DNA from: Elusimicrobia bacterium RIFCSPLOWO2_02_FULL_39_32
GTDB taxonomy: Bacteria; Elusimicrobiota; Elusimicrobia; 2-02-FULL-39-32
Length of the DNA stretch: 64,000 nucleotides
Direction of reading: 5' to 3'
NCBI GenBank assembly: GCA_001800135.1
Contig: MGUU01000025.1
Coordinates: 124,001 to 188,000 of the forward strand
Made by a program: the position numbers and the translations under genes. Positions 18,901 through 34,872 of the stretch are shown piece by piece; position 1 is the first letter of the stretch, and each line of letters begins with the position of its first letter. The notes below the pieces were generated by a model that did not search any database, had not been told where the DNA came from, and saw only the letters and a list, made by a program, of their open reading frames with translations.

Positions 18901-21900
18901 TTCTCTTATAAAACTCAAAAAATTCAATCTAAAACTATGGTGCACAGCGAGCTCAAAAAGAATCTGTTCGTTAAAAGGATCTGCAAGAATACGTTCATAC
19001 AATCCGCGAGTTAAATAGATAAAACCATCTGGATCATGAAAGAATGGAACTAATTTTTCTCCTGACAAAAATCCATATTCTGGTATCTCTACAACTTTAA
19101 ATCCGCGTAAACAGGGTTTAAAATAAATCCTCTTTTCATAATCTTTCTTAAACAGTCCTGCCACAAAATCATTCGCTTCATTTACTAAATCCCTTTTCTC
19201 TAAAAGCTCATTAGTTTTATTCACTAAATCCTGATTCTCTAAGAGCGTGGCATTTTTTGTGAAAGTCTCTAAAAATGGTTGGGTGTCTATCATTTTGTCC
19301 CTAGAAATTGGAACTTGCAATGGTTCATTTTTCCCTGCCATTGTAAATGCGATCGGTAAACCAGCTCCTTTTTCTACGGTAAATAATCCTTTAGATCTAA
19401 GGAGTAGAAATTGGAAGAGATCAGTCATATATTTTTCACTATATGTTTTTCTATTAGATGGAAGATTGAGCCACACATCCACAAAATAAGGAAGAACAAA
19501 TACAACTGCCCAAAGTGCATAAATGATTGCAGGTGAAAAAATAGAATTAAAAGGAAAAAAATTTGTAAGAGCTAAAAGCGCAAGAACAGGCAATACAGGC
19601 AAAAAACCACCTGCATAAAAAAGAGCGAGACGCCATCTTCTAACTTCGTATTCCCATTCATTGTGAGGATGAAAGTACCCCTTCACCCCAATGCCTGCAA
19701 TAATAGTGGTTCGATATTTAATTGGGAAAAAGGGTAGAGCGATGAATCCTGCCATTAAACCTGTGATCATGTGCCCAAGTTCATGGTTAATATTTCCAGG
19801 CAAAAGCCACCATGAACGAGGTTTCTCCCACTCAAATCCTTTATATCCTGCAAGCGAATTGGCAGAATTTCCATACCAACGTTTTATAATAGCCAGACGC
19901 TTTCTAATTTTTCTTACATAGTCCTCTACCTCAGATTGCGGTAGATGCGTTAGAATTAAAAGGGAAGCTTCATAAGTATCCATTGCATCCTTACTTTTTC
20001 CATCTTCCAGCGTTCTTTCAGCCTCAAGCTCAAATTGAGCTAAAATCCTTGCATAGGATTCTATTTCTTCGAAATTATGCTGATCCAAAAACTTAGCGGC
20101 TTCAAATGGTTTTCCTATATAAAGCAAAGATGAAACTATCAAGGATAGGTATAAATCTTCTGGCTTTAATGTCCACGGGGCTGTTTTCAACCGCTCATAA
20201 GCAATATCAAATTCTCTTGATAAGATTTTAAATACATTCGAGCGCCGATCTAAATCTTTATTAGTCAGTCCAGCAGCTAACACCATCAATCGCTGCATGA
20301 TCTCCTGAAAGCTTTTCAATTGAGATTCAAAAGATTTTTGAGATTGTATGAGATTAGAGGCAAACTTCCCGTGATTCCTAAAAGAATCCTGAAGCCATAA
20401 AATAAGATGAGGAAGTTGACCCTCGCCTAAAAGCTTAAGAATATAAAGTTGGGCATCTCTTTGGTCAGAGGAAAGTTTAGAGGGATCATTTTGCTCAGCA
20501 GAACGAATCAAAAGTTCATATATTTCTGAAGGCACATCTAACTTCAACAGCCTCCGATGAATCTCTAGACCAATTTTATAGGGAGCTGGTCTAACATCTT
20601 CCACATCTCCTTCAACTTTTCGCGCCAGAGAATATAGTTCAGGACGGCCCGCATCAGAAAAAACTTTAGTCCAATAGGCTTCAGTCACGATTTCGTTTGG
20701 AATATGTGCCTTGGCTTGCAGTCTTCTTAAATGATCAGTAATAATTTTTTTTGCCTGTTCCTCAGCTGAAGATAAAACTTCACCTCTAAATCCAAAAATT
20801 GAAATTTTTATAGGAAGAGATACGGGGTTAATTGCAAGACTTTTCCTACGAATGTTTCTATAGAACCATAAGACGCCTAACACACCTACGCCTCCTAACA
20901 ATACCGTCCCAAATACCCATTGAGGCACTGAATTCAAAATTGGAACATATTGTTTTAGGAAGAAAACAAGGATAGTTAAACCAGCTAGACCCGCGATCAT
21001 CATTCCATATGCCACCATCCCCTGTGCCGATTGATCTAACCATAACTCCTTTCCTTTACTCTGCCAGTCTCTTGATTCTTCTTTAAGAGCTTTTACAATC
21101 TGGATAAAAATATTCTGCTTTACCTGCTGCGGTGTAGTATGACGAATGGAGCCATCTTTTTTATCAAGCTCGAGATTAAATGTCACATCCCCACTGGTTG
21201 TAGCTGCAATCCCATCCCCAATGTCCTTGGCATAGACCCTCATATCTTTCCTAACTGTTTTAACTAATCCATGAAATTTAAGGTTCTCTTCTTCATCGGG
21301 AATCTCTACTTCAGAATCACTTGCTTCCTCCACACCAATAATATGGGTTGCAACAATAGGGGGCAAAGAGGAAGGGTAGGCTTCAGACGGCAAGAACAGC
21401 TTTTCTCCATCAAACAATTTCTGAAGAGGTGTTTTTTCTTGAGTAAATACGCTTAAATAAGCAGAGCCATTGGCTATATCTACCTTCGCAATCTTGGGAG
21501 TATATGTGATCACCGTTACATTAGATTTGTTAAGCAGCGCTTCAATCCCTTCTGAATGAAATCCTCCAGTTACAAGCACTGCAACATGGGACTTGGAGCT
21601 CAATACTCGATTCTCACTCGACATAGAGGTAATAGAGGAAGTAGGGAAGATGGGGGAGGTAGGGGAAGTGGAGGAAGTTGAAGATTTAGAGGATAAAAGA
21701 TTTAATAGATTATTCGCTATTTTCTCATCACGAATAAAAGATTCTTGATAGAAATCCTCAAATGATCTTAAATCAAGAAGAAAGTTAGGAAGTTGAAATA
21801 TTGGTGAATTTAGAGTTGCGATTCTCTTATACTCTTTCCATTCTTCTCTGGTTAAGGAGCAGCTCACCAGCTTCTCGGTAAGATAGAGAGCTTTCGATTG

Positions 21901-23283
21901 GGCCACAATCTCCTTTTCTTCCTTTGACTTGGTTAGAGACTGATACGCCTTCTCTTCCAAAACCTTTACTTCCTCAAAAAGTTTATCCGCATTGATCTCA
22001 TCAGAGAGTAAAACATATTTCAGATAAGCATCCATTGCTGGAAACTTTTTAAAGTCAACCCCGCTTTGCTCGCAAAGTTTCTGTAGATAAAGATAAAAAT
22101 CAGCGTGCTTTATATTCCCTAGCCGATAAACCATGCTCACATTCAGCAACTCTTGCATTTGAGCTTTGGAAAGAGAGTGGATCAATTTTTCCAAGAGTAC
22201 TGCTCGTTCTTTCTCTACCTCTTTGAAATTAAGGGAAGATTCAATCTCCAAAGCTTTAAGGAACTTCATAATTTGAGAATGATTCCTAGTGACTCGATAG
22301 GCAATAGAAGAAACCGAAGCGACTATTTTTATATATTCTCCCAAGCCTATTTTCTGATTTCGGTATAATTGCACCTTCTGATCAAACGCTTTTAACTTCT
22401 GGCTAAAGCTCTCAGATTTTTGCTCTTCCAGTTTTATCTTAAAAGAATGGAGCTGCTCTTTATATTGGGCTATCTTAGGATAAGATCGTTTATAAGCTTC
22501 TACATTGGCATCATAATGTTTGCGGTCATCCACCCCTACAAAGGATGGAATCTCTTTCTTGCCTGACTCAAGAGTAGTTAAGATGCCTGTCCTCTGCCTG
22601 TCCTCTGCCTGTCCCGATCTGAGTCGAGGAATAGAATTAAGAGGAATGGTTCTGGGACTTGTGAAAGCTGTGTGAATCGCCCCAGAGATATTGTTTTCTT
22701 TTAAAAGATAATCCGCCACTTTCTTAACCGCGTCTTGATTTGGGAATTCGCGAAAACTACTAAGATCAATCAGTCCAAAAGCTCCTTCCAGCGCAACCAA
22801 GTCTGGCTTGCCATGGGCGATGAAGTGCTGAATTGATTTCCCAATGTTCCTTTGAGCATCTTTATTTAAATGAGCATCTTGAATATAAATAACGATCGGG
22901 TCCCCAGTTTTCCAGGAAGAAGGAATCACAACTTTTTTAAGAGTTGCATAACTTAATGGGTTGGATGTGACCCATTGTGGTAAAGGAAACTTAAGACTTG
23001 GAATATGGGCTTTCTGATTTAAAAGAGGCGCAAGTGAAGAGTTCGAACTATCAAGAAGATTTTTAGTAGAAGCGGTTGGGAAAATATTTTGTTCAATGGA
23101 GGGAAGTCGAGCTAAAAGGGTTTCATCTTTTTGTAACTCTTTTGCCGCGATTCTACGATCCTGCCATAAATTGGCCTGTACAAAAGGCGCGCTGATCGTA
23201 GTAAACAAAAAACTAACCGCAAGGGTTTCCGCAGTCAGCTGAAGCCAACTCCTATTTCTTTTTGTAATCCAAAAGCGAATCAT
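9994..23283 (-). CDS. Giant exported multidomain protein 1 with embedded SecA motor
   Basis: An uninterrupted 4429-codon gene. Domains in order: signal sequence (about 15-37, cleavage near VQA); TIKI/ChaN/TraB-like module (about 125-630, with IQDAH at 135-139 and GGFHSEG at 573-579); a degenerate pilin-like hairpin (752-808); a helical region; an M50-like membrane protease region with HELGH at 1167-1171; a long helical region; a full SecA core with KTGEGKS near 2224, DEVDS near 2341, ATNLAGRGTD and GRAGRQGQPG near 2678, and scaffold motif YWTNHL near 2808; a Ser-rich linker near 2920; a 2H-phosphoesterase-like region (H3289); a Flp-pilin-like segment cut site G3450/Q3451; a second 2H-like region (H3803, H3926); a membrane region; and a C-terminal domain weakly like that of giant 2. 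An AGGGG site precedes the ATG. Each domain is seen by motif; the joint function is unknown. Confidence 0.9.
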   Translation of the reverse strand: MIRFWITKRNRSWLQLTAETLAVSFLFTTISAPFVQANLWQDRRIAAKELQKDETLLARLPSIEQNIFPTASTKNLLDSSNSSLAPLLNQKAHIPSLKFPLPQWVTSNPLSYATLKKVVIPSSWKTGDPIVIYIQDAHLNKDAQRNIGKSIQHFIAHGKPDLVALEGAFGLIDLSSFREFPNQDAVKKVADYLLKENNISGAIHTAFTSPRTIPLNSIPRLRSGQAEDRQRTGILTTLESGKKEIPSFVGVDDRKHYDANVEAYKRSYPKIAQYKEQLHSFKIKLEEQKSESFSQKLKAFDQKVQLYRNQKIGLGEYIKIVASVSSIAYRVTRNHSQIMKFLKALEIESSLNFKEVEKERAVLLEKLIHSLSKAQMQELLNVSMVYRLGNIKHADFYLYLQKLCEQSGVDFKKFPAMDAYLKYVLLSDEINADKLFEEVKVLEEKAYQSLTKSKEEKEIVAQSKALYLTEKLVSCSLTREEWKEYKRIATLNSPIFQLPNFLLDLRSFEDFYQESFIRDEKIANNLLNLLSSKSSTSSTSPTSPIFPTSSITSMSSENRVLSSKSHVAVLVTGGFHSEGIEALLNKSNVTVITYTPKIAKVDIANGSAYLSVFTQEKTPLQKLFDGEKLFLPSEAYPSSLPPIVATHIIGVEEASDSEVEIPDEEENLKFHGLVKTVRKDMRVYAKDIGDGIAATTSGDVTFNLELDKKDGSIRHTTPQQVKQNIFIQIVKALKEESRDWQSKGKELWLDQSAQGMVAYGMMIAGLAGLTILVFFLKQYVPILNSVPQWVFGTVLLGGVGVLGVLWFYRNIRRKSLAINPVSLPIKISIFGFRGEVLSSAEEQAKKIITDHLRRLQAKAHIPNEIVTEAYWTKVFSDAGRPELYSLARKVEGDVEDVRPAPYKIGLEIHRRLLKLDVPSEIYELLIRSAEQNDPSKLSSDQRDAQLYILKLLGEGQLPHLILWLQDSFRNHGKFASNLIQSQKSFESQLKSFQEIMQRLMVLAAGLTNKDLDRRSNVFKILSREFDIAYERLKTAPWTLKPEDLYLSLIVSSLLYIGKPFEAAKFLDQHNFEEIESYARILAQFELEAERTLEDGKSKDAMDTYEASLLILTHLPQSEVEDYVRKIRKRLAIIKRWYGNSANSLAGYKGFEWEKPRSWWLLPGNINHELGHMITGLMAGFIALPFFPIKYRTTIIAGIGVKGYFHPHNEWEYEVRRWRLALFYAGGFLPVLPVLALLALTNFFPFNSIFSPAIIYALWAVVFVLPYFVDVWLNLPSNRKTYSEKYMTDLFQFLLLRSKGLFTVEKGAGLPIAFTMAGKNEPLQVPISRDKMIDTQPFLETFTKNATLLENQDLVNKTNELLEKRDLVNEANDFVAGLFKKDYEKRIYFKPCLRGFKVVEIPEYGFLSGEKLVPFFHDPDGFIYLTRGLYERILADPFNEQILFELAVHHSFRLNFLSFIREGGSAERFIQAILEGFDFYAKTIFILNYLPVVSQGRLKGEQEKGFGPFHIKGDETEAAYYLALFLERYARFRKLGYRPQGSDRMIGGPEDTYMIGVGEWVDFRDRFPNKSFLTFPGKLSEFLENLEDRKEIKVGAETIKRDEIDPEFRANLAGENLLYIASLVYDYSPGAQLDMSKIFGALDSYKEDRFVTGLLATFVRRYGRNQMHFMRDLFEKFKAEELIQIIVQLNRLGRKVNLEDKGEHYGFNETDQLMNILYRIVLKYSLDSKIILGSLEKLNTIFDLLNRNVRPLGKVGEVVSILNKFLDKSGTQGELCLTVFQEILSSTDPKNLTVLLRIIFEDTSAITNLDRIKSLLEKIKERDVDFTDIERANQLPLSLVELILTHSSFPNKDLRTVSYHGVIGYKLKENVPEDMEALYSRGYRWMDALFFKGIENFLEMEKEIEQRISQDPHFVPTIRTIHPHQDWYRNELSIDWEKKEPHLNLMIFASKFLKTDSGQAVPFRVIESLWIYTANALNPLFPKEYDEQKKVQDSFNDLKDRLCRIGIRMLKKENEEIDPILFVRDLNILVQRMSMAEVESLLESLEIALEGTDQELINPFIESLTYFAETMSYEEGRDEIIRALENLRTDGIAEALESALQRRLDYEAEKFPEIPLEKTISRIDGLDKSQKAELQEKLQVVLAFEQELVTKTQRELKARALEIRSLVENQALSFDEVKLEYLAILREISKRLYGMRAYNVQLASTLLFFENSEMNPRGLAEQVKTGEGKSLIIALTAGMSSLSGKPVDIFTVNSYLAKRDAIKFKRLYDFLGLTVDHIKDQDHSSRKSLKESNSDTFSADIVYGTNSNFEFLYLYEQVDQSPIRAKKSNGVTVKREFATAIVDEVDSLFLDEAVNPHLISGFGRAMPTWHYQPIYQFFKGLTQGTDFHGTELTSIGEDKYRDFIDQLVKNQGRGKAQFSQVQLKRYARSALQAERIQRDVDYVVEKVKKIKMTYFGPQEVEEEDIIIMDKATGRKREGSVWNHGLHQFVQIKEGISPREEFKPGASITHPFYFKFYKKIFAITGTIGSDTDEKELLEVYGLKSLRLPNHKPSLRIDMEDYVARTLQEKWDKVVEQVELYHKQGRPVLVGVMTIRESEELHKKLRESGIEAQLLNGSQNQPEETIIQRAGYKGVVTVATNLAGRGTDILLGPGVVELGGLHVIGTQRFDARRVDDQLRGRAGRQGQPGSSQFIISLQDEGFRRYLGPLAVVLGTLTHRPQETRREMAIETQKAAEIIHYQWRVSRNRIYSVQDNHMNRFFKMVGDYFNVRRIYEIFPELVAEYQKEAIAQMDSTQSLFLIVREKVFDYWTNHLQLLEDLTEDFEDETGPSFEEGFSNYKRLAEESFQDVLEKLKKDVYSIYGGMAGLSETEVAERIDRFKNGSGEGDTQSDPQAQLAVADQANSQALNADGSAVSDQDNSGRGKSDGSSSSESVEITFNDLVERCRQASFPFDPAQLISILLDTKKLKSHKERIQIYFWFMRFPDISLVMEAVKDLAHLIAQDSSLDTPEFRSNLSDILRLHSMEIVSDINRIIPLASNPGGIIFLIKAPLMAILKKLLPQERMPRISNIYDLWIVFVLENWLLQNFVKPFMPTILHALGLDFVSVNAGLWGLFLGIHILDYLGWKFVNVIEYAFFKTQNSPRAPPPSNMHAAGIISILSFAFGLDPFSLQSLAIHFLTNFAGHYIGMFRTERKFVEKLKRELYDPYFEDAKNFPYDEASLSTPQPENWGTSVRDRCVDKDGNPTLHYSLALIVRPEHGSPLLQNLVSIQEGFSGLPFAKKFYATPSPGIHFTALLLEGPRKEMVPKDTIEEKMNDFEKNLLADLSAFDLWVEGLTMDKTSGRIMAQVFPIPKKDGSDSPFYLLRRMNPNARPRITITLFTPFQPLTENEKEELARWLQQNRNRIFGRMHVNELELLHTSDAYGQGETIKSYGLDGVARQRGIDNLFRNEDGQAMTEYGLIAAIVAVLAVVLYRLQQNIPILNSLPSWAWAVAGIGAGIVGFGLLYRLHSSNKLKQALFQIISEKIGGINEDLDRLNESLDRSEARLTESDNISLADQIEPADGIPITTSLEESVEIHEKFILDSTNIDEIAQKIVDLYEDQNVRELVVLSSDQRLDMPLGKQYRFAASCVFGSNLAKPMDESGGFISLPVAVTKDSVKELILMSLGPLPEVTQFKLFVDTYSPETKVAKVVPIFLSNNKENVNIPSSDLGQPVDSYKSFYDTIRQSVKGVTHISEENLQRSRTFLTLEGDLKSFDERSANGVFGITEVYFLPESKTRERMAAFQDELKQRFGNKLYFVDADKLHFTTQGLEQQWDNRELQTKKELAMHNRKEDIDPEAEPFATVRRRAHQIETPVTQMQVGRVNWNPEIGIFWELRPRLKAGASDPILERYKSWEMNQGSEIDSPVAGDPILDRRKSWDLPQPRPPHITAAYFTQAFSEDELRDLRKIIAKYQQDDYFGDIVVDKAEVIAYEDLSFNAGVRVLEVVPFVKNYGDSLPNSSIYWFVRAVFGWSHEQAKWIGISGLLPEIFVLIKLVTILDAISMGIFLIGFTALHIVLETIVELNQNRSPPTVSQFWKQFVKTFRKNFSKQFLVFTPYLFIPIMNYFHADPIFIVASAFAAAAIHVAYDWKTLFGKNVKHPSSPKESETLADKTQAEQAAKVIASAIADRYEGKEINRSKLLKGLKKILNEDLRRGIENISNPFVQNNLVLQTIHGLNEDEFKAALAKEFMARFKERLSEDQAYNLAAQVVLNGFSTKPLEEALRESEINSHTLQISVVDPANPVKYLSKALKKYKIAAKKLLEGEKLSVLFILKEPLSLDKEAEIRKKAGKQISISFLNVEEAFGPHGLNMAVLDKKLFHWENIEYFDHFSLILPIKLAGDLSKLKGLGILGKAVIHFIDELFNSLPVMRVGDENFEKTLHAIALIAEQA
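21626..21680 (+). repeat. Purine-rich G-tract within giant gene 1
   Basis: The plus strand is almost pure purine with runs GGG, GGGGG and GGGG plus several GG pairs. It encodes, on the minus strand, a Ser/Thr/Pro-rich low-complexity linker (near residues 531-556) inside the TIKI-like module. It could form a G-quadruplex on the non-coding strand. Confidence 0.55.
22585..22615 (+). repeat. Tandem 11-bp repeat inserted in giant gene 1
   Basis: GCCTGTCCTCT occurs at 22585-22595 and 22596-22606, with a partial third copy to 22615. It encodes an arginine/glutamine-rich insert (RSGQAEDRQRTG) at about residues 222-233 that has no counterpart at the matching place in giant 2. It resembles a small dispersed repeat that has landed in frame. 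Confidence 0.7.
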
Positions 23284-23443
23284 TCCAGATAACCCCTAGT
23301 TTTCATCTTCTTCATGCCGAAAATGCAATATCCAGATTTAAATAACATATGCAAAAAGTATAGCCGTTTCCCCTCAACAAGTCTTCAACTTTTTGTAACA
23401 TTTTTGTAACATTTTTTTTGAATTTTTTGGGTGTGAGTTCCAT

Positions 23444-23870: not shown

Positions 23871-26800
23871 TTATGCTTGGAATTTGATGAGGTTAATGCG
23901 TTTAAGATCTTCGCTCACGCCTTTTTCAATCTTCTGAACCAGACCGCCCGCTAAGAACACCAAGAGTTTAACTACTCCCTCTTCTAAACCGTTTAAGTCC
24001 CAGTGATCTTTATTCAAAGCAAAAATAGTCATTTTCTGAATTGTTTTAGGCAGGCTATTTTTCAAAGCAAGCGCATTGATCCTTCCTTTTAGTTTCCCTT
24101 TTTTATTTATTAAGCCATTTTCTTCTGTGACAGATTTAATAATAATTTCATTGAGTTTTAATGCGTTCTTTAATATCTCAACTTCCTCTGTTTTAAGCTC
24201 GGCATTATGACCAAGTTTTTCTAATGTGGCTTCAATCTCAGAATCTCGGACATCCAATCCCAAAACAGTAATCACAACTGGTTTGTCTTTTCCAAACTTT
24301 TCTGGGTCAGATTTCCTTTGTTCAGTAATAGCTCTTAATTTATCAAAAGCAGAACTCTCTTGAGCGCTGAATTTATCGCCTGTAACCATATTAGCAGAAA
24401 CTTCCAGAACATTTGCTCTGCCCCATTCTAATTCTAATGGTTTATCAGCAAACTCTAATCTGGAAAGTTCTCCCATACGCTGGTTATAAGATTCAAAAGC
24501 ATTTCTTAAAGACTCCTCTACTTCCGCTTTCCTTTCCATATCTTCTAAATAATATTCACCAAAAATAATTGAAATGGCAAGCTCAATATCAGCTAATTGC
24601 ATCTGACTAATCTGAGCGTTTTGATTTAAACCTAACTGGGTTTGAACCTTCATTTGAGCCACTAAAGATATTTCTCCCCATTGCTTGCTTAAGGTATGGC
24701 CTGCATGATATTCAGCTAGCATGCGGAATATTTCATTCACTCTATTTTGTTCATTAAACACTTCTCTTTGGCCAGTCAGCAATTTTCCGGATATTTTACT
24801 CTCTAATTCTGCAACTCTTTTTTCTTGCTTATTTCTAGCGGATTTTACAACAGAGCTCCTAAAAAATTCTTGCAGAGCGTCTCGAATAGCGCTAGATTCT
24901 TTTCTATGCTGAAGCGCTCTCTGGCGCAATGATTCTAGACTGATTTCAAACTCTTCTACTGGAATGGGTTTGGCGCGACCACCCAACAACAATTCACCCA
25001 AAATCTTTATTCGCTCCAATTTTCCCTTTGGAGTCAGATTTGGTTGAGCTGTGGGGACAGGGGCAGTTTTAAAAACAGGAACAGCGCCCAGAGCTTGCTT
25101 AGGAAGCTCAACAAAACGATAGTAAAGTCCAATGCCAACAGAGAGTAAAGTTGTCAAAGGCTCAGTAACATTCGCATGTAATATCTGATTGAGCGGCCAT
25201 AAGGTTTGTTGAATCAACTGGCCAATGGATTGTTGGTACATAAACCAAACAAATAAAATAATTGAGATCATAACTGCGGAAAGAAGAATTTTTCCAAGAG
25301 AAAGAGTGCGTTGCGCCTTTATACCATCAGCTAATTGATCTCTGCTAATTTTTCCAGATACTAACTGCGCAATAAAACCAACTAAACCCACAAGGCTCAA
25401 ATATCCCATCATCTGTTTAAACATTTCAAAATTCATAAACAGTGTTGCGGACATATTTGCAGTTGCAATGTTTGGCAGGGAAAGTCCGGATCCTACTAGA
25501 GAAACCATTGGAGACAGCATAGGGGCTAACGGGGATAAACTCTCAATGTTTGACATAGGAATATTTATTCCTATGGGATTCAACAAATTCATAACCACAA
25601 CTAAAACCACAGCAAACAGCGCGACAATAACCCCATACTCAACACTGGACTGTCCCCTTTGATCCAACATCGTCTCTAAAGTCTTTATAACCCCATCCAA
25701 AGAATCTGTACGCCTACTTAACAGTTTAAACACAATTTCACTCACTAAATCCAGAAAGTTGCTGGGATGTGATTCTAATAATTCGATTAAGAGTCCATAG
25801 ATACGATTGACATAATCCTCATATCTTTCAAACGGCTCATTTTCTCTGACAAATTTCATTTGATCCCTAAACCAACTAAATTTAAGCGCAATTTTTTCTT
25901 CAAATAAAAATGCACGATGTAACAGCTCACTTCTATTTACAAATTCTCCAAAACTATTAAACCCAAGGGTGTTTATTCTTACAACTAATTCCTCAGCATC
26001 CATAAACGGATTTATTTCTTCCAAACGCCGCAGTGAATCACGAAATTCTAAATAATCTTCTGTTCTTGCGTCCCGATCACGCATCATTTGGCGGTTCCTT
26101 TCTATGACTAACCTCTCTACTTCTTCTAATTTACTAAAATCTCTTTGAGCTGACTCTGGTCTAATGGCTTTAAATTTTGAGTGGGCCGGCGTCCTTGGTT
26201 CTAATGGCTTTAAATCTTGAGTCATCGCACGCGCCATGCCTCCCTCGGCGCCTGTTTCCAAATAGGGTTGGGGCGCTTCTTCGCGGGGTTTGAGCGATTC
26301 AGCAATAAAAACTCTATTGAGCAAAGAATCTTCAGCCGCATTTAGTTCGCTCTTAATCCGATCAAAATATTCTGGATTTAATCTTAATCTCGCAGCCATT
26401 AATTTAAGATATGCGGGTATAAAAATAGCAACTAAACCAGCCACACGTTCCAATGAACTACTAAATTTTTCTATCATCTCTGGCGTTACGCTCCTTAAGT
26501 CAAATGGTTTTTCTCCCGTCGGCCATACCCGATCAGCAGCGCTGACCGCTCTTGTCAAATTGTAAACGCCGCCACCGTCCATCATATGGTAGATAACATA
26601 AAGCAACTTTTTTTCAGAGTCTGTTAAATTTTGGAATTCAGGTGAGACATCAATAGAGATCGTCTCCAGATATTGCGCAAAATTTCTTATGCGCGTTAAT
26701 GCATTATTAAAGTGAATCTTATGTCTTATTCGAGAACCCACGCCCGCGAGCTTTGGAGCTGATTCTCTCATGCCATCCATATCATTTTTAAGTCCAGCAA

Positions 26801-29800
26801 TAAATTCCAATAGTTGTTGATATGCCGTACTGTTGAACTCTATCCCTCGAGCAGCGCTAAAACCATTCCATGAATAAAATTCATTCTCCCCTTTAGGCAC
26901 AGAAACCGCTACTAAAATCTTTTTCCCGTCCGGATAAAATGTTAAACCGTATCCCTTTTTTCTTAAAATCTCCAACTCCGCCGCGTAGGATTCCAGTCCA
27001 AGCCCTGTTCCACTTACTTCACCCGGCATGGAACCTTCAAACCCGCCTTCCTCTTTTATCGGCATCGTGAGGGGCGCGATGGCGAATTTATTGCTGAACA
27101 TTCTTACAAGAGGCGTCACTGCCAAATAAAGCTGTCTTAAAATGTCATTAAAAATATTCGAAATATCAGAAAAGAACCCCAATGGAGCGCTCACCCGCAT
27201 TTCACGTTTTGTTGCTTCTGCTTGTTCTTTCAAAATTTCCTCAATTAATTCTGCAAGCTCGTCTGATCCTTGATTTAAGTCAAAAACTTGGAATAAATTT
27301 TTATTTTCCTTCACTCCAATTTTCTCCGCCTTAACCGCAAGTTTTGCTGTTTCCTCCGTTGGATTTGCAATAGGTTCACCCGTAACAAGGCTTGCAATCA
27401 CATCCGCGGCTCTACCGCTTCCGCGAATCACAATCATCCGCCTGCCCTGCCGAATATTCTCCTTTACTTCATCGAGGGTAATTCCTCCTCCATTTGCAAC
27501 AATCGCAACCGAAGGTCTAAATCCAATCAAACCCATTCGGCCAAACAGTTCATACATCGCTTCAGTTTCAGAGCCCCAATGGCCCCAACTAGGCTCCCAT
27601 CCATATTTTTTCTGTTCTTCCAACCATGGGTCATTTTTTACAGTCATGATGTACGAGTGGTTAGGATCCACAGGTGTTTTTCCTTCCTCACCCGCAAAGC
27701 TAACATCAGCTCCCGGGGCAACACCAACCAACACAAAATTATTTCTTTTGGCCATCTGTTTGCCTGCCGCTTCCATAATGCCTGCTTGTGTACCCCCATC
27801 GAGCACGGCAATTTTTCTGCTTTTTGCCACTTGGGATAATGCATCAAACAATCGAATTAATTTTTCTTTGTCATCCTCGCTCATTTTCGATGCGCCGCCG
27901 CTTAAAACAATAAATTCATTTGCCTGTTTATGGATATTGCCAAACAAATCTTGCACATTAATATCCCGCATTACTCCATCCGCATTAATTTCTCTAGCGA
28001 CCCTCATCCCCGGCGTATTTTGATTGATAAATTTATGAGCAGCAACCGCAAATCGAACCCCATACATTCCCATTACAATTGCGCCCGGCAAAATCATCGT
28101 AGTTAGCACGGTCACATTCCCAGCTAATCCGGCTAACCATGGAACCAGAATCGTCACAACAAGAAGGGGTGAATGGATCATCATTGCAACTATAGATTTA
28201 CTAGCCCATGTGCTCCAATCTACAACAGCTACTTGCCATACACCATTTTTAAATTGATATTCCATGGGCCGATATTTCCAAAAATGCCATCTCGGTTGCC
28301 CTTTAGGAATTCCGCCGTGCATCATGGCAAAAACAATATTGAAGGGAACGTATAAGGCGGGAACAAGAAAAAGGGAGTTGCGAACAAGGTCGGGAATGGA
28401 AGGATCAACTCCAAACAGGGTCATGGCTAAGCCGCCCAAAAAAACAGCGAAGAGATATAAGGTTCCAAAATTCGCTGTTTCTTTATCTGGAGCCCCCTCT
28501 GCGATCGCCCGATTGATCTCCGCCTGACTCTTCCCTTTTCCCACCAGCCACGGCATGGTGAGAGGAACCGCCCCCAATTGTCGCCTGCCCGTTTCCTTTT
28601 CCGAAGGAAGAATTTCTTGCGATGAACGAACTTGCTCTTTCAGTCCAGTTTCTTTAACATCCGCTTCCCCAAGAGTTAGCAATTCATTTGCAGAATTCGT
28701 TGTTCCAATTGCGGGATGCAATAATCCTTGCACCATATGCGCGATTTGATAGCTGCTCAGGTTTAAATGAGATCGCACCATGGAATCAACCAACTTTAAA
28801 GTGGATTCAAAATCATTTCTTCTTCTGATACCTCGGATAAATTTCATGATATCAAACGCTTTTCCATCCGCATTCAATCTCTCTAATTTATCCAACACTT
28901 CAAGCCGCTTACGCCTGATGATTTCTTCGGTTTTAGATATTCGATAATCCCTCTCCCAAAGAGCCGGTTCATTACTACTAACCATCTCGCTGATTAATCC
29001 ATACCAGGATGGAAGGTACGCGGAAAGGTTAAGAAAATCGGACTTTTCTTGAGCTCTTTTTAAATAGGTTTCAAATTTTTCCCTAATTTGTTCGTTAGAA
29101 AAAGGGGCCAACTCTAGATGAGGAAGCGCCATCCACATCGCGGCAGATAGAATATCGTCCCGGTGTATATTTATTCTTTTTCTCTTATACTCCGCAACCA
29201 TTTCTTCTATAAGCTTTTCTATCTCGCCATTTTGAATCTCACCATTCTTAATTTTATCCGCTAAATTCTCGATGATTTTCAATTCCACTTCAAATTCTTT
29301 ACTCCCGATCTTTTTATATCGACGGAATAAATCTGGATGAAACATGCCATACCTATTTACAAAATCCTTTATTCCATCTTGGTCTTTCTTGGAAAACGAA
29401 TAATCTATTGTCCCATCTAATAATAGATGGGGTATTCCAGACATTAACTGCGCAACAAGCGTTTCATTCTGTTCCATGTACGAATCGATGAAATCGAGGA
29501 CCTTTTTTCTTGTTTCAGCCAAACGATCGGAATCAAAATTATGGTCTCGAAAGAAAACCATTTGATCTGCAACCTCCGAACTGTAAACATAATCAAGAGT
29601 GTCAAGCGCACGAACAAAATTTAACGGCGCCGCTCGGGCAATTCTAATTAATTCGGGCCAACTATTATCGAATCGATCAGGATCTCCTCTATCATTTTTA
29701 GAATCCAACAAAAGCCCAAAGAACCGATCAGCATCCTCGCCCAACAGCGTTCCAATATCAGCGATATTTTTCCAATTCTTATTAAACCAGAATGTTCCAA

Positions 29801-32800
29801 AATGCTCCCCATGCCTTGAACGTTTCTCTATAGAATCGCTTCTCCACCAATACAATTTGTTTAATATTGAAAATAGTTTTACCGCGTTTTTTCCAGACGC
29901 AACGCCTAATGCAACAAAATCCGACCAGCGATCATCGTTAATCCATGGTGGGTGATATAAACCCTCTATAAAAAATTTTATAACATCTTCTTTATTGTCA
30001 ATGGCTGAAGCTATTGCCATGATGCCTGCCCAACGATTTATTGTTTCGTCTGAAGAAGAAATAGAAGAGAGTAACCTCTCCGAATCTTTTCCAGCTAATC
30101 TGCAAAGAACAACAAAATCATCCCAATAAAGATTGATAATTTTACTTAGTTTTGGATTTGATCTGGCGGCTAGAAGCGCTGAAATTCCCCAATCCGTACC
30201 TTTTTCATAAAACAGCCTCCTAAGTAACATAGATAAAGCGGTCGGAAACAATCGGGATAAATGAGATTCAAAGAATGATATTATTACATCTCTAGTACTT
30301 TTGCTTTCAAATACTGCCTCTCGAATATTAGTAGGTGAAAAATCTAAATCACCTAGATGCCGTATGATGAAATTATAATCTATCCCAACAATCCTGCCTA
30401 CGTCTTTAGTCGGCATCGTCAATAGTGGCAATGCGTTCGCCCTTACAAACGGAGCTAAAATACGCTCAAGAATACCGTAAGGGTCAAGATTTTTGTAATA
30501 GGTGAGCATATTTACTTTTCGATGCACTTCTCTTGCGGCAATGATTCCCGTTGAAATACTGGCGCCTAAAATTATGACTCCCATAACTCCCGTTAGGTTC
30601 CAAGATATTGGCGGCAATATATGGACAATCAATTGCGAAAATAAAAAAGCAAAAAGTATGGGAAGATGGATCATCATTCCCATAAAAGCAATTTGAATTG
30701 GAACATCAAATCCAACTGTTTGAAGCTCCCATTTTCCTGTTAAATCATTCAATTGGTATGCTTTAGGCTGGTACTTCCAAAACTTCCATGTCAGCGGATT
30801 TTTCCAATCAAATCCCGGAATTTCACCATGCATAAAACCAAAAATCAGGTTACCCACAATGTAAGGCAATGCTAAAATTAGTATAAAATCAAGACTAGGA
30901 ACAGAAAGGGGAAAATCGACGCCAAAAAGAATAAATAATGCCTTTGTAACAAAAGCTCCTAAAACATACGTGATAAAAAATATTGTGGTCTCTTTTATTG
31001 GAGCCTCTTCCGTTGTAATTTCTTCAAACTCCTCTGCGCTTATCACTCCCCCATATTGAGGCATCGTTAAAGGGGGTGGCACCCGTGCAGCTTGGGGTTC
31101 AGATAGAAATATCATGCCCTTACCGCTTAAGGCATCACCTTCTGCGCGAACCATGGTTGAGAAAATATAATCGCTAAAAACAACATCAAAACCTCCTCGG
31201 CGGTTGAGAATAAGATTATTGTCACCATCTATCGTCATGGAGGCGATCTTCTTTTCACCCGCGGGGCTAGGAATAAATCCCCTATAGCCCCTTTCAAAAT
31301 TCATGACATGAATGACTCTTCTTGCTCCATCATTGATATACATATTGCCATCACTATCCATTGCGATGCTGTCGCCAAATTCTAATCCACGAATCGCCCT
31401 TAAGTCTCCAAATTCCTCAGTTTCCGTGTTAAAAGTTCTAATTCCTTTTGGATCCATCATGTAAATTAAACCATTCTCCTTATTTAAAACCATCTTTTGT
31501 GAAAAACGGAAATAACCACCTATCAGTCCCAGAGAGCGATCCGGTTCTTCCCCGCCCCACACTCTCTCTTGTTTAGTGCTTAAATCCAAAGCCCTAAACT
31601 CCTCATCAATTTTGTAATACAATTTTCCCTTATGGAGCATCATATTGCGCACTAGGTGGGTTGGTTTTGTAAATTGACTGGCAGGAATATCATAGACTTC
31701 CAACAGTTCTCCGTCAGGGCTATATTTCATGATTTGTCTTCTGCTGAAAATGTTATCCGTGGCGGCATAAATATTATCCTCTTCATCCAGAACCATATCT
31801 ACAACCAATAACGAAAAATCCTTCTCCCCAAGTTTGACAAAAGATCCATCCGGCTTATAAATTCTTAGACCCCCAAGAGCTACTGCAATCCTGCCATCCG
31901 ATAGCGCCTTCACTGCATTCGCCTCTAAAATCAAACCTTCAATCTCCTGAGAAAAGATGGGTCCTTCAAATTTGAACCGCGGTTTTTGAGCGATGGTGGA
32001 TACTGCCGTTGTAACTGGTTTAGCAACCGGGGAAACCGTAATTGAGCGAGTAGTTAGCTTGCTTACCTTTGCCGGCTGAGCCGGGGTTGGAGGCGATTGA
32101 GCAGGAGGACTAAAGTAGTTAAGGATCGGTTTATAAAAAAATGTAGCGGCGCCGAATGCGACCATTGTTCCTCCAAGCAGAGCGCCGCCCACCGCGCCCG
32201 CGCCAGCCGCCGCAATCAGTATTCCAATCCCTGCCAGCCCGATCACCAAGCCAATCGTTCCCAATCCGGAAAATCCAGCCAAACGAGAAAATTTCGCAGG
32301 CACACCTGTACGTCTGGCTCTAAATCTGTCTTTTATTTGAACGACTTTCCCTATGCTTTGATCTACCGCCTGAAACAATTTATTAAAACTTGCGCCTACA
32401 CGCCTAGAACTGACTCTTGTAAACTTCCCTGCCTTGCCAACAAAATTACTATGAGCATAAATGCGGATCACATAGACTTTCCCTTCAATAGTTATTTCTC
32501 CTTTTTCAAGAATGATGTCATCTTTGTTTAAACCATCTTTCCCGAAATAGTTTTCTCTTTCAGCCATCTCGAAATTATCTTTCTTCGCAGCAACAATCAC
32601 ATACTCTGTTTTCCCATCCTTACGGAAAAGAAGAGACTGGTAAAGACTATCTCGCATTGAAATAGCCTCTTTTGAGATTTCAAATTCATCAATGCTTTTT
32701 AAATCTTTTGCGAATTTTTCATATTGAGCGGAATTCTTTGCCCATTCTTCCGGAGAAGATTCTGCTTTAGTCATAAGAGATTGCAGAGAGGCGAGAATCC

Positions 32801-34628
32801 CTTCAAAAGCTTGTATCTTAGGAGCAGCTCCCTCCAATTTATTTGCTCCAGCTGCAGTCAAACGCCAAGAAACCAGATATATGATTTCTCCTGCAAAAAG
32901 TTTTTCTAACGGAATTGGATCCCGAGCAAAAATATCTAAATAATGGCTATCTTTGGGAACTTCAGTAATCTTAGGCGCAACCACCACATAAGAAATTCCT
33001 TTCTCGCGCCAGATCTGCATTAACCCTTCGGAATGAAAGCCCCCGGCGATCATAATTGCTTTGGATGTTTTTTCCACCTTCATTTTCTTTAAAAGATTAT
33101 CAACAAGAGCGCGGTTTCTCTTCACAGCATAGTCACAAAATTGTTTGGAAGGCTTAAGCAAATCCATGAAATTTTCAGGCAGGTTTAGATTGACCCCTAA
33201 ACCCGCTTCTTTAGCCAAACTTTTCGTTTCTTGAACAAGATTAAGCAAATCTTTTTCTCTTTCCTTGTAATAGAGCCAATCCTCGGGCGTCATAGCTTGG
33301 CTGGTCAATTTTTCCAACAGCAGGATATCCCGATTTAAAACAATTAATCTTTTCTGCGCTGGTTTTAATGCGATTGAATTTTGCGCGGTTTCTTCCAAAC
33401 CCATCAGTTCAACTGAGAGACGATTCTTATCAATATTATCTGCCAGTTGCACATAATTAATATAGGTTTTTAACTGTTTGAGACCTTCCAAAGATATGCG
33501 GTTCTGCTCACAAACTTTTTTTAGGAACATGTAATAGTTTGCGTAAGTCATTCTGCCTAAACGATACAGTATGCTTTGCTGAACAAGGTTAGAGAGCTCG
33601 CGCTCCGACAATTCTTTGGCAAAAACTTCTACCAATTTTAAACGCTCCTGCTCCACCTGTTTAAAATCTAACTTCTTTTCCCAGAGAAGAGCTTCTAAAA
33701 GCAAATAAAGATTGGGGTACTGATTTTTGTCCTTTGGATAAACAGAAACTAAATATTCAACGTAAGAGCCCAAACCTTCTTTCCAACTTTTATAAGCGTT
33801 GAAATGCTGATCAAAACTTTTTAGTTCTTCCGTATAAATCTTTTCTTTTAGTTCACCCGCGCTATTTTTAAGTTCGTTTAAAAATTTTTGGACATTATCT
33901 TTGTGCTTAACAGAGTCTTGGTAGGCTTTGATGTTCCCTTGGTAAAGATTAATATCTTCTATCCCCCACAAAAGCGGCGCTTTAGTAGCTGTAATCCCAA
34001 AAAACTCTGGTCCGCCGATATACCCTTCCCTCAAAAAATAATCTGTAATTCCTTTTGTAATTTTTTGGTTTGGATAGGCTCTATAAGGTTCAAGCGCAAA
34101 AGGACCTTCTGCTCCTTCTAGCCCCACTAAATGAATTCCTCTTTCCTCTACAAGCCCCTGAATCATGGATGCCATATTCTTCTGAGCCTCTAGAATCTCA
34201 TGAGCATCTTGAATGTGGATAATCATAGGCGCATTTTCTTTTTTAGAAAGATAAATATCTCGGATAGAACCAAAGGGGAGCACAAGAGTTGAAAGCCATG
34301 TTTCCACATCTTTAGGCGTGGATTGTTTAAAGTCAGGAGTGGTACGAAGCACATTGGGCGCGATTGAAATTTTATCTGGAACAGCAAAGCCAAGGTTCGC
34401 GGCTTGCGGCACTTGCGCTAAGAGCTGGTATTCTTCTTGGGTAAGTTTAGAAGGTAACTGAGCAGGAATTTGAGGTTGTTCTAAGGTTTCCTCATTGTTC
34501 AATCTTTGCGCTGCTTTTTTGCGCTCTTCCCAAATGCTTGCTTCTGCTAAATAAACAGCTATTGAATTAGAATAGAAAAAGATAGCAGAAAGAAAAAGAC
34601 AAAAGCTTGGTTTTATTTTTTTATGCAT
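23871..34628 (-). CDS. Giant exported multidomain protein 2 with SLOG and pilin-like segments
   Basis: About 3585 codons from the ATG at 34628. An upstream in-frame ATG at 34703 would start inside the terminator hairpin and is rejected. Domains in order: signal sequence (about 5-30); TIKI/ChaN-like module (about 120-600; IQDAH near 138, GGFHSEG near 530) plainly homologous to giant 1; Gly/Ala-rich membrane hairpin (about 790-830); beta-propeller-like repeats (about 890-1180); membrane module A (about 1210-1395); helical repeats; membrane module B (about 2035-2200), a diverged copy of A; an LSDAT/SLOG domain (about 2215-2455; LDGGTQAGIM, VANGGG, RGSGRAADV); helices; a Flp-pilin-like segment with G2992/Q2993; membrane helices; a C-terminal domain. 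LTMP motifs lie at 1187, 1403, 2023 and 2520. Expression is likely controlled by the c-di-GMP riboswitch upstream. Confidence 0.88.
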   Translation of the reverse strand: MHKKIKPSFCLFLSAIFFYSNSIAVYLAEASIWEERKKAAQRLNNEETLEQPQIPAQLPSKLTQEEYQLLAQVPQAANLGFAVPDKISIAPNVLRTTPDFKQSTPKDVETWLSTLVLPFGSIRDIYLSKKENAPMIIHIQDAHEILEAQKNMASMIQGLVEERGIHLVGLEGAEGPFALEPYRAYPNQKITKGITDYFLREGYIGGPEFFGITATKAPLLWGIEDINLYQGNIKAYQDSVKHKDNVQKFLNELKNSAGELKEKIYTEELKSFDQHFNAYKSWKEGLGSYVEYLVSVYPKDKNQYPNLYLLLEALLWEKKLDFKQVEQERLKLVEVFAKELSERELSNLVQQSILYRLGRMTYANYYMFLKKVCEQNRISLEGLKQLKTYINYVQLADNIDKNRLSVELMGLEETAQNSIALKPAQKRLIVLNRDILLLEKLTSQAMTPEDWLYYKEREKDLLNLVQETKSLAKEAGLGVNLNLPENFMDLLKPSKQFCDYAVKRNRALVDNLLKKMKVEKTSKAIMIAGGFHSEGLMQIWREKGISYVVVAPKITEVPKDSHYLDIFARDPIPLEKLFAGEIIYLVSWRLTAAGANKLEGAAPKIQAFEGILASLQSLMTKAESSPEEWAKNSAQYEKFAKDLKSIDEFEISKEAISMRDSLYQSLLFRKDGKTEYVIVAAKKDNFEMAERENYFGKDGLNKDDIILEKGEITIEGKVYVIRIYAHSNFVGKAGKFTRVSSRRVGASFNKLFQAVDQSIGKVVQIKDRFRARRTGVPAKFSRLAGFSGLGTIGLVIGLAGIGILIAAAGAGAVGGALLGGTMVAFGAATFFYKPILNYFSPPAQSPPTPAQPAKVSKLTTRSITVSPVAKPVTTAVSTIAQKPRFKFEGPIFSQEIEGLILEANAVKALSDGRIAVALGGLRIYKPDGSFVKLGEKDFSLLVVDMVLDEEDNIYAATDNIFSRRQIMKYSPDGELLEVYDIPASQFTKPTHLVRNMMLHKGKLYYKIDEEFRALDLSTKQERVWGGEEPDRSLGLIGGYFRFSQKMVLNKENGLIYMMDPKGIRTFNTETEEFGDLRAIRGLEFGDSIAMDSDGNMYINDGARRVIHVMNFERGYRGFIPSPAGEKKIASMTIDGDNNLILNRRGGFDVVFSDYIFSTMVRAEGDALSGKGMIFLSEPQAARVPPPLTMPQYGGVISAEEFEEITTEEAPIKETTIFFITYVLGAFVTKALFILFGVDFPLSVPSLDFILILALPYIVGNLIFGFMHGEIPGFDWKNPLTWKFWKYQPKAYQLNDLTGKWELQTVGFDVPIQIAFMGMMIHLPILFAFLFSQLIVHILPPISWNLTGVMGVIILGASISTGIIAAREVHRKVNMLTYYKNLDPYGILERILAPFVRANALPLLTMPTKDVGRIVGIDYNFIIRHLGDLDFSPTNIREAVFESKSTRDVIISFFESHLSRLFPTALSMLLRRLFYEKGTDWGISALLAARSNPKLSKIINLYWDDFVVLCRLAGKDSERLLSSISSSDETINRWAGIMAIASAIDNKEDVIKFFIEGLYHPPWINDDRWSDFVALGVASGKNAVKLFSILNKLYWWRSDSIEKRSRHGEHFGTFWFNKNWKNIADIGTLLGEDADRFFGLLLDSKNDRGDPDRFDNSWPELIRIARAAPLNFVRALDTLDYVYSSEVADQMVFFRDHNFDSDRLAETRKKVLDFIDSYMEQNETLVAQLMSGIPHLLLDGTIDYSFSKKDQDGIKDFVNRYGMFHPDLFRRYKKIGSKEFEVELKIIENLADKIKNGEIQNGEIEKLIEEMVAEYKRKRINIHRDDILSAAMWMALPHLELAPFSNEQIREKFETYLKRAQEKSDFLNLSAYLPSWYGLISEMVSSNEPALWERDYRISKTEEIIRRKRLEVLDKLERLNADGKAFDIMKFIRGIRRRNDFESTLKLVDSMVRSHLNLSSYQIAHMVQGLLHPAIGTTNSANELLTLGEADVKETGLKEQVRSSQEILPSEKETGRRQLGAVPLTMPWLVGKGKSQAEINRAIAEGAPDKETANFGTLYLFAVFLGGLAMTLFGVDPSIPDLVRNSLFLVPALYVPFNIVFAMMHGGIPKGQPRWHFWKYRPMEYQFKNGVWQVAVVDWSTWASKSIVAMMIHSPLLVVTILVPWLAGLAGNVTVLTTMILPGAIVMGMYGVRFAVAAHKFINQNTPGMRVAREINADGVMRDINVQDLFGNIHKQANEFIVLSGGASKMSEDDKEKLIRLFDALSQVAKSRKIAVLDGGTQAGIMEAAGKQMAKRNNFVLVGVAPGADVSFAGEEGKTPVDPNHSYIMTVKNDPWLEEQKKYGWEPSWGHWGSETEAMYELFGRMGLIGFRPSVAIVANGGGITLDEVKENIRQGRRMIVIRGSGRAADVIASLVTGEPIANPTEETAKLAVKAEKIGVKENKNLFQVFDLNQGSDELAELIEEILKEQAEATKREMRVSAPLGFFSDISNIFNDILRQLYLAVTPLVRMFSNKFAIAPLTMPIKEEGGFEGSMPGEVSGTGLGLESYAAELEILRKKGYGLTFYPDGKKILVAVSVPKGENEFYSWNGFSAARGIEFNSTAYQQLLEFIAGLKNDMDGMRESAPKLAGVGSRIRHKIHFNNALTRIRNFAQYLETISIDVSPEFQNLTDSEKKLLYVIYHMMDGGGVYNLTRAVSAADRVWPTGEKPFDLRSVTPEMIEKFSSSLERVAGLVAIFIPAYLKLMAARLRLNPEYFDRIKSELNAAEDSLLNRVFIAESLKPREEAPQPYLETGAEGGMARAMTQDLKPLEPRTPAHSKFKAIRPESAQRDFSKLEEVERLVIERNRQMMRDRDARTEDYLEFRDSLRRLEEINPFMDAEELVVRINTLGFNSFGEFVNRSELLHRAFLFEEKIALKFSWFRDQMKFVRENEPFERYEDYVNRIYGLLIELLESHPSNFLDLVSEIVFKLLSRRTDSLDGVIKTLETMLDQRGQSSVEYGVIVALFAVVLVVVMNLLNPIGINIPMSNIESLSPLAPMLSPMVSLVGSGLSLPNIATANMSATLFMNFEMFKQMMGYLSLVGLVGFIAQLVSGKISRDQLADGIKAQRTLSLGKILLSAVMISIILFVWFMYQQSIGQLIQQTLWPLNQILHANVTEPLTTLLSVGIGLYYRFVELPKQALGAVPVFKTAPVPTAQPNLTPKGKLERIKILGELLLGGRAKPIPVEEFEISLESLRQRALQHRKESSAIRDALQEFFRSSVVKSARNKQEKRVAELESKISGKLLTGQREVFNEQNRVNEIFRMLAEYHAGHTLSKQWGEISLVAQMKVQTQLGLNQNAQISQMQLADIELAISIIFGEYYLEDMERKAEVEESLRNAFESYNQRMGELSRLEFADKPLELEWGRANVLEVSANMVTGDKFSAQESSAFDKLRAITEQRKSDPEKFGKDKPVVITVLGLDVRDSEIEATLEKLGHNAELKTEEVEILKNALKLNEIIIKSVTEENGLINKKGKLKGRINALALKNSLPKTIQKMTIFALNKDHWDLNGLEEGVVKLLVFLAGGLVQKIEKGVSEDLKRINLIKFQA
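26160..26222. repeat. Out-of-frame internal duplication in giant gene 2
   Basis: A 23-base segment at 26160-26182 recurs with one mismatch at 26200-26222. The offset of 40 bases is not a multiple of three, so the two copies are read in different frames (DLKPLE and KFKAIR) inside one continuous gene. Confidence 0.8.
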
Positions 34629-34655: not shown

Positions 34656-34690
34656 AAAAAAACCCTTACCTCTTAAGATTATGGTAAGGG
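34656..34690 (-). terminator. Intrinsic terminator of the riboswitch
   Basis: On the minus strand CCCTTACC (34690-34683 region) and GGTAAGGG form an 8-bp stem with a 12-base loop, followed directly by seven T residues (34662-34656). It lies between the aptamer and the ATG at 34628, as expected for a transcriptional riboswitch platform. Confidence 0.85.
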
Positions 34691-34704
34691 CAAAATAGAA
34701 CAAA

Positions 34705-34836
34705 CTGGGAATGCTCCCAGCTTTGGCAGTCTGGCGATCCTTCTTTTAGAAAAAGTCCATTAGCAATACTTTAGGACTGCGCTTCAAAGGATCCATGACT
34801 TTGCGTCCCCTGATTACTCAGGCTTTGCCCTTATCG
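34705..34836 (-). promoter_or_regulatory. Cyclic di-GMP-I (GEMM-I) riboswitch aptamer
   Basis: Minus-strand landmarks match the GEMM-I consensus: GGGCAAA (34830-34824), a hairpin CCTGA-GTAA-TCAGG capped by a GNRA tetraloop, GGACGCAAAG (34809-34800), then a stem enclosing a CCTAAAG / TAATGG tetraloop-receptor-like internal loop (about 34778-34752), GACTGCC (34731-34725) and a final hairpin CTGGGA-GCAT-TCCCAG (34720-34705). The 5' segment GATAAGGGC (34835-34827) can pair with GCCCTTACC (34691-34683), which is also the left arm of the terminator, giving an alternative fold. It precedes giant gene 2 and should couple its transcription to c-di-GMP. Confidence 0.85.
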
Positions 34837-34843
34837 CTTTATA

Positions 34844-34872
34844 GGTATAACAGGAATTCAGTTAAAATTCAA
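34844..34872 (-). promoter_or_regulatory. Promoter of the riboswitch and giant gene 2
   Basis: TTGAAT (34872-34867) and TATACC (34849-34844) are spaced by exactly 17 bases on the minus strand. The predicted start near 34837 falls at the 5' edge of the aptamer. Confidence 0.65.

Follow-up and report, generated by a model that had tools for sequence, protein, structure and literature searches.

Giant genes of uncultured bacteria offer few clues as to when they are used, and the locus described here raises the question of which signal governs one of them and in which direction. The stretch of DNA that was analysed (the window, 64 kb) belongs to contig 25 of the genome of an uncultured groundwater Elusimicrobia bacterium and carries two members of a giant-gene family (9994-23283 and 23871-34628) whose products reach 13,470 aa and whose genes amount to some hundreds of kb. 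An earlier note had placed the second of these, giant gene 2, under the control of a c-di-GMP-I riboswitch. This assignment of the target holds, with the ATG at 34628 lying downstream of the terminator, and the class, the switching direction and the ligand of the element are treated in turn below.

When the window was compared with all Rfam families using cmscan, a full-length match (1-87) to c-di-GMP-I (RF01051) was obtained on the minus strand at 34839-34722, with a score of 58.6 bits (E 6.7e-9) against a gathering score of 35 bits. It was the sole match of gathering level within the 64 kb. The riboswitch class named in the earlier note is thereby confirmed by the covariance-model search that the note itself had suggested as a check, and three of the sequence elements it had listed were found as described: the GGGCAAA core at 34830-34824, the GGACGCAAAG core, and the GTAA tetraloop as part of the P2 hairpin CCUGA-GUAA-UCAGG (34822-34809). 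The window copy thus matches the whole RF01051 consensus, including both cores, the GNRA hairpin of P2 and the ligand-site bases G20 (34829), A47 (34806) and C92/C93 (34726/34725), in a numbering which we take to follow that of the Vc2 structure. It differs from the consensus in P3, into which the cmscan alignment places a long insertion of 37 nt and which lacks CUAA, the classical tetraloop receptor, a gap in the covariance-model alignment. In its place the form AUGGAUCC...GGAUCGCCAG is found, which recurs among other copies of the family. The c-di-GMP-I-GGC variant family (RF03167) scored the aptamer at 51.9 bits, below its cut-off of 59, and base 47 of the window copy is A, not G.

On the minus strand, promoter, aptamer, a further hairpin and an intrinsic terminator precede the ATG (Table 1), so that the order of promoter, aptamer and terminator read earlier stands, with coordinates 34872-34844, 34839-34722 and 34691-34662. 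The promoter is an exact site that did not occur in shuffled sequences, and both hexamers are base-for-base identical in the ortholog of a sister species of the same genus, a groundwater Elusimicrobia MAG (JACPBF01; G005). The layout TTGnnn-N17-TAnnnT was also found upstream of other riboswitch copies. A generic sigma-70 scan listed no promoter here, as each hexamer agrees at only 4/6 positions; a comparison of orthologs brought the site to light. From this promoter, transcription is predicted to start near 34837, in which case the aptamer would begin at the very 5' end of the RNA and only a few pairs of P1 would be possible. The leader between aptamer and ATG was also considered as coding sequence, its frame being open in both species with indels of 12 and 6 nt, and was rejected because the two share no start codon.

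Table 1. Features of the riboswitch locus in window coordinates
Feature	Position	Strand	Remarks
Promoter	34844..34872	-	-35 TTGAAT 34872-34867, 17-nt spacer, extended -10 TG-n-TATACC 34849-34844
c-di-GMP-I (GEMM-I) aptamer	34722..34839	-	RF01051 58.6 bits and ligand-contact positions
Antiterminator 5' strand	34823..34833	-	UAAGGGCAAAG, within ligand core
Hairpin between aptamer and terminator	34702..34723	-	AAGCUGGGA-GCAU-UCCCAGUUU; kept in sister species, pairs changed
Antiterminator 3' strand	34685..34695	-	UUUUGCCCUUA, overlaps terminator left arm
Intrinsic terminator	34656..34691	-	Stem GCCCUUACC/GGUAAGGGU, 12-nt loop, U6 tract 34661-34656
Giant gene 2, 3,585 aa	23871..34628	-	ATG 34628

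The terminator stem (34691-34662) comprises 9 bp with a folding energy of -13.2 kcal/mol. It has no base in common with the aptamer, whose 3' end lies 30 nt ahead of it. A competing pairing had been proposed earlier between 34835-34827 and 34691-34683. These strands do pair, with one A.C mismatch, yet the actual complementarity is longer and shifted: 34833-34824 (UAAGGGCAAA) pairs with 34694-34685 (UUUGCCCUUA) in 10 contiguous Watson-Crick pairs, which are extended by an additional G.U at 34823/34695 (helix energy -14.7 kcal/mol). When the expression platform was shuffled by dinucleotides, a run of this length was rare (p = 0.018); by duplex energy alone the helix did not exceed the shuffles (p = 0.30). 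As the helix uses the left arm of the terminator, the two folds are mutually exclusive, as had been recognised. In the sister species the pairing is identical in both strands while the flanks have changed, and the identical strands therefore provide no covariation for the antiterminator; a search of genome contigs with the N-terminus of the gene gave one relative only.

The 5' strand of this helix is the ligand core itself. Since the helix takes up G20, G21, C22 and the following A's of GGGCAAA, it is an antiterminator and not the closing stem P1, and its formation is incompatible with ligand binding. When folding was followed along the growing RNA, the left arm of the terminator paired with the aptamer at a probability of 0.80-0.85 before the right arm had emerged. 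Once the terminator was complete, its two arms paired at 0.79 without ligand and at 0.99 when the core was reserved for the aptamer, and the corresponding values for the sister species were 0.37 and 0.98. At 0.79, the terminator of the window copy wins at equilibrium even without ligand, and the ON state must therefore be kinetic, as described for the Cd1 riboswitch discussed below. Taken together, these results suggest that giant gene 2 is under the transcriptional control of the c-di-GMP-I riboswitch, which most likely acts as an OFF switch.

The opposite direction had been favoured in the earlier note, which itself called it unproven by sequence: c-di-GMP would stabilise a closing stem formed by 34835-34827 and 34691-34683 and so deprive the terminator of its left arm. 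The two segments can indeed pair, no terminator forms as long as they do so, and a relative of the ON type exists in the pilM cGAMP riboswitch of Geobacter metallireducens (PMC9262584). However, the competing helix occupies the very bases that contact the ligand, and if the core is left to the aptamer, the P1 extension that remains contributes no more than -0.3 kcal/mol, and the probability of the terminator is 0.99. Moreover, the 30 nt between aptamer and terminator allow both to coexist, unlike in pilM. We therefore regard an ON switch as improbable, and the identification of the competing helix as the closing stem is not upheld.

For the preferred OFF switch, the following course of events is proposed. 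Transcription would start at about 34837, close to the beginning of the aptamer. In the absence of ligand, the newly made 5' strand would pair with the 3' strand of the antiterminator as the latter emerges; the left arm would then be lost to the terminator, and RNA polymerase would continue into the giant gene. With c-di-GMP bound, the GGGCAAA core would be locked in the aptamer, the free left arm would pair with the right arm, and transcription would end before the ATG.

This arrangement resembles that of Cd1 from Clostridioides difficile, a transcriptional OFF switch before flagellar genes in which aptamer and terminator coexist and an antiterminator competes, the latter refolding into the terminator over time (PMC9262584). 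In the window, too, aptamer and terminator are separate and able to coexist, as seen from their non-overlapping coordinates and from the folding with the core reserved, and an aptamer strand would take the left arm without ligand. The two differ in that the Cd1 antiterminator uses strand A, which stabilises the aptamer, whereas in the window copy this role falls to the 5' strand P, which holds the ligand core itself, and in the target, which is flagella in Cd1 and a giant gene here. The pilM riboswitch (GEMM-Ib) shares the aptamer architecture, but it is an ON switch in which aptamer and terminator are mutually exclusive (PMC9262584). It carries A20, whereas in the window copy base 20 is G and the terminator lies outside the aptamer. 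The riboswitch class is already known, and the choice of the antiterminator strand is a minor variation of a known OFF logic.

Base 20 sets the choice between cGAMP (A20) and c-di-GMP (G20), and the exchange A20G converts a cGAMP riboswitch into one for c-di-GMP (PMC6456294). The A20 that marks cGAMP riboswitches of the GEMM-Ib type was not found in the window copy, which has G at 34829. The source genome (2.52 Mb, 97% complete) contains four GGDEF matches and one PilZ match, and no match to EAL was found in it. All three GGDEF domains that were read, of the four matches, carry GHxxGD with the canonical aspartate and not the serine of the Hypr type. Together with G20, A47 and C92 this points to c-di-GMP as the likely ligand; cGAMP was rejected as a candidate on the basis of base 20 and of the GHxxGD motif in the domains read.

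A genuine aptamer might nevertheless belong to a platform that no longer switches, or its real ligand might be another cyclic dinucleotide. Bases 20 and 47 vary among the copies of the family, with A20 in 12/30 and G47 or C47 in others, so that ligand specificity drifts within the group. Also in its favour, the terminator is preferred at equilibrium even without ligand, and the sister species retains the riboswitch although its giant gene ends after 128 codons. Against it, the window copy retains G20, A47 and C92, the sister species preserves the promoter, the aptamer core, both antiterminator strands and the terminator, and the three GGDEF domains that were read belong to the canonical c-di-GMP type. 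We judge this possibility slightly less probable still than an ON switch, and retain a c-di-GMP-responsive OFF switch as the preferred reading. The copies with A20, the cGAMP-type base (L002, L003, L009-L013, L015, L016, L022, L024 and L029), several of which have C47 or G47, occur in genomes that also hold G20 copies, although none of the three GGDEF domains that were read in G000, the source genome, is Hypr-type.

Matches to RF01051 were found in 9/9 genomes of the family and in 116 of the 235 genomes of the class, and in none of the 14 control genomes. Six copies are present in the source genome, five of which exceed the cut-off while the sixth (L006) scores 33.8 bits. Nothing was found in favour of a chance resemblance. 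It is refuted statistically by this distribution and by the E-value of 6.7e-9 in the search of the window against the whole of Rfam, and hardly merits consideration.

In a set of 22 terminator-bearing copies of the family, complementarity between the left arm and the aptamer of the same copy went beyond that of shuffles (Fisher p 8e-8). In a rerun with 49 copies the value was 0.0014 for the left arm and 0.75 for the right arm, which served as control; all these p values are optimistic, as some copies are close relatives. Among 30 copies of the class outside the family the complementarity was not detected (Fisher p 0.29), and the claim is therefore limited to the family. Within the family, the main terminator of a copy begins at least 13 nt past the 3' end of the aptamer. 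The aptamer segment that is used varies: L001 uses CUACAAGACU, L004 uses GCAAAGCUA and the window copy its 5' core strand. Two copies (L002 and L024) were found without a terminator and have a hairpin UCCGAACUU...AAGUUCGGAG ahead of an ATG at +41; this hairpin may hide the ribosome-binding site, which suggests translational control.

In the protein encoded by giant gene 2, the N-terminus is hydrophobic and resembles a signal peptide. The protein also has a SLOG/LSDAT domain and, near its C-terminus, a weak Flp-like segment. A region of about 600 aa at its N-terminus is common to the giant paralogs and was found in about 20 distinct long open frames of the genome and in 8/9 genomes of the family. 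Four of the six riboswitches of the genome precede genes that share this region, with products of 6,540 (L001), 13,470 (L004), 3,585 (L005, the window copy) and 6,984 aa (L006). The start regions of the other giants, two of which lie at contig edges, contain no RF01051 match, and the riboswitch thus marks a subset of the giant family. A structure model of the giant N-terminus had a mean pLDDT of 64 and gave no significant fold match, and a ChaN/Tiki-like relation is only hinted at by one member (E 0.007). In the sister species (L028 / L038, G005:C39) the ortholog of giant gene 2 keeps the riboswitch and stops after 128 codons; other genes follow, one of which is transposase-like. While the kind of RNA is known, its setting before paralogous giant genes of 3,585 to 13,470 aa is unusual, and giant genes under c-di-GMP riboswitches were not found in the literature searched, a body that leaves most subscription journals and preprints outside. 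The riboswitch ties four giant genes to a known lifestyle signal and predicts their production at low c-di-GMP. As the switch can be assayed cell-free, one aspect of giant-gene control becomes checkable even though the organism cannot be grown.

Upstream of giant gene 1, an 11-bp direct repeat, GTTACAAAAATGTTACAAAAAGTT, is located at 23387-23410 on the minus strand and resembles an operator of the PhoB/OmpR type. Repeats of this kind occur at 22 sites in the genome, compared with 0 for the reversed pattern, and many of them lie directly upstream of giant-family genes. Giant gene 2 is without such a repeat.

In many copies of the class the ATG lies only 3-7 nt past the aptamer, and a strong hairpin followed by a U-run is contained within the codons of the signal peptide. 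At 14 of 29 such short-leader loci the terminator was stronger than 95% of synonymous recodings (p<0.05), where about 1.5 would be expected; as some of the 29 loci are close relatives, the excess does not represent 14 independent events. Among the giants, an unbroken T7 was present in 6/6 short-leader copies, and TTC TTT TAT was found instead in five of the seven copies with a terminator in the UTR. No paper describing a terminator inside signal-peptide coding sequence was found in the literature searched. It appears evenly balanced whether the window copy belongs to an Elusimicrobia c-di-GMP regulon that shuts off exported, paralogous giants of up to 13,470 aa, with the platform having moved repeatedly into coding sequence within the phylum and the antiterminator partner having been re-invented from different aptamer segments. 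Both the drift of the ligand site (G20/A20 and A, G or C at 47) and the terminators inside coding sequence are useful for studying how riboswitches diversify.

In-gene terminators were seen in the riboswitch-led giants L006, L011, L029, L030, L041 and L042, and class-wide in L112, L128, L133, L134, L136 and L138. In L138, for example, the hairpin is GCCAUUGUCGGGGAAG...CUUCUCCUGACGAUGGCUUUUUUAUU, and VFFY is coded by GTC TTT TTT TAT. The commonest gene directly after the riboswitch throughout the class encodes a PorV-like exported protein (SGGQPGAFL-YGVGARALAMGGA), and FlgD-like proteins with 'NYPNPFN' also recur (L107, L112, L113, L115, L119, L130, L133, L142 and L144 for the two types together).
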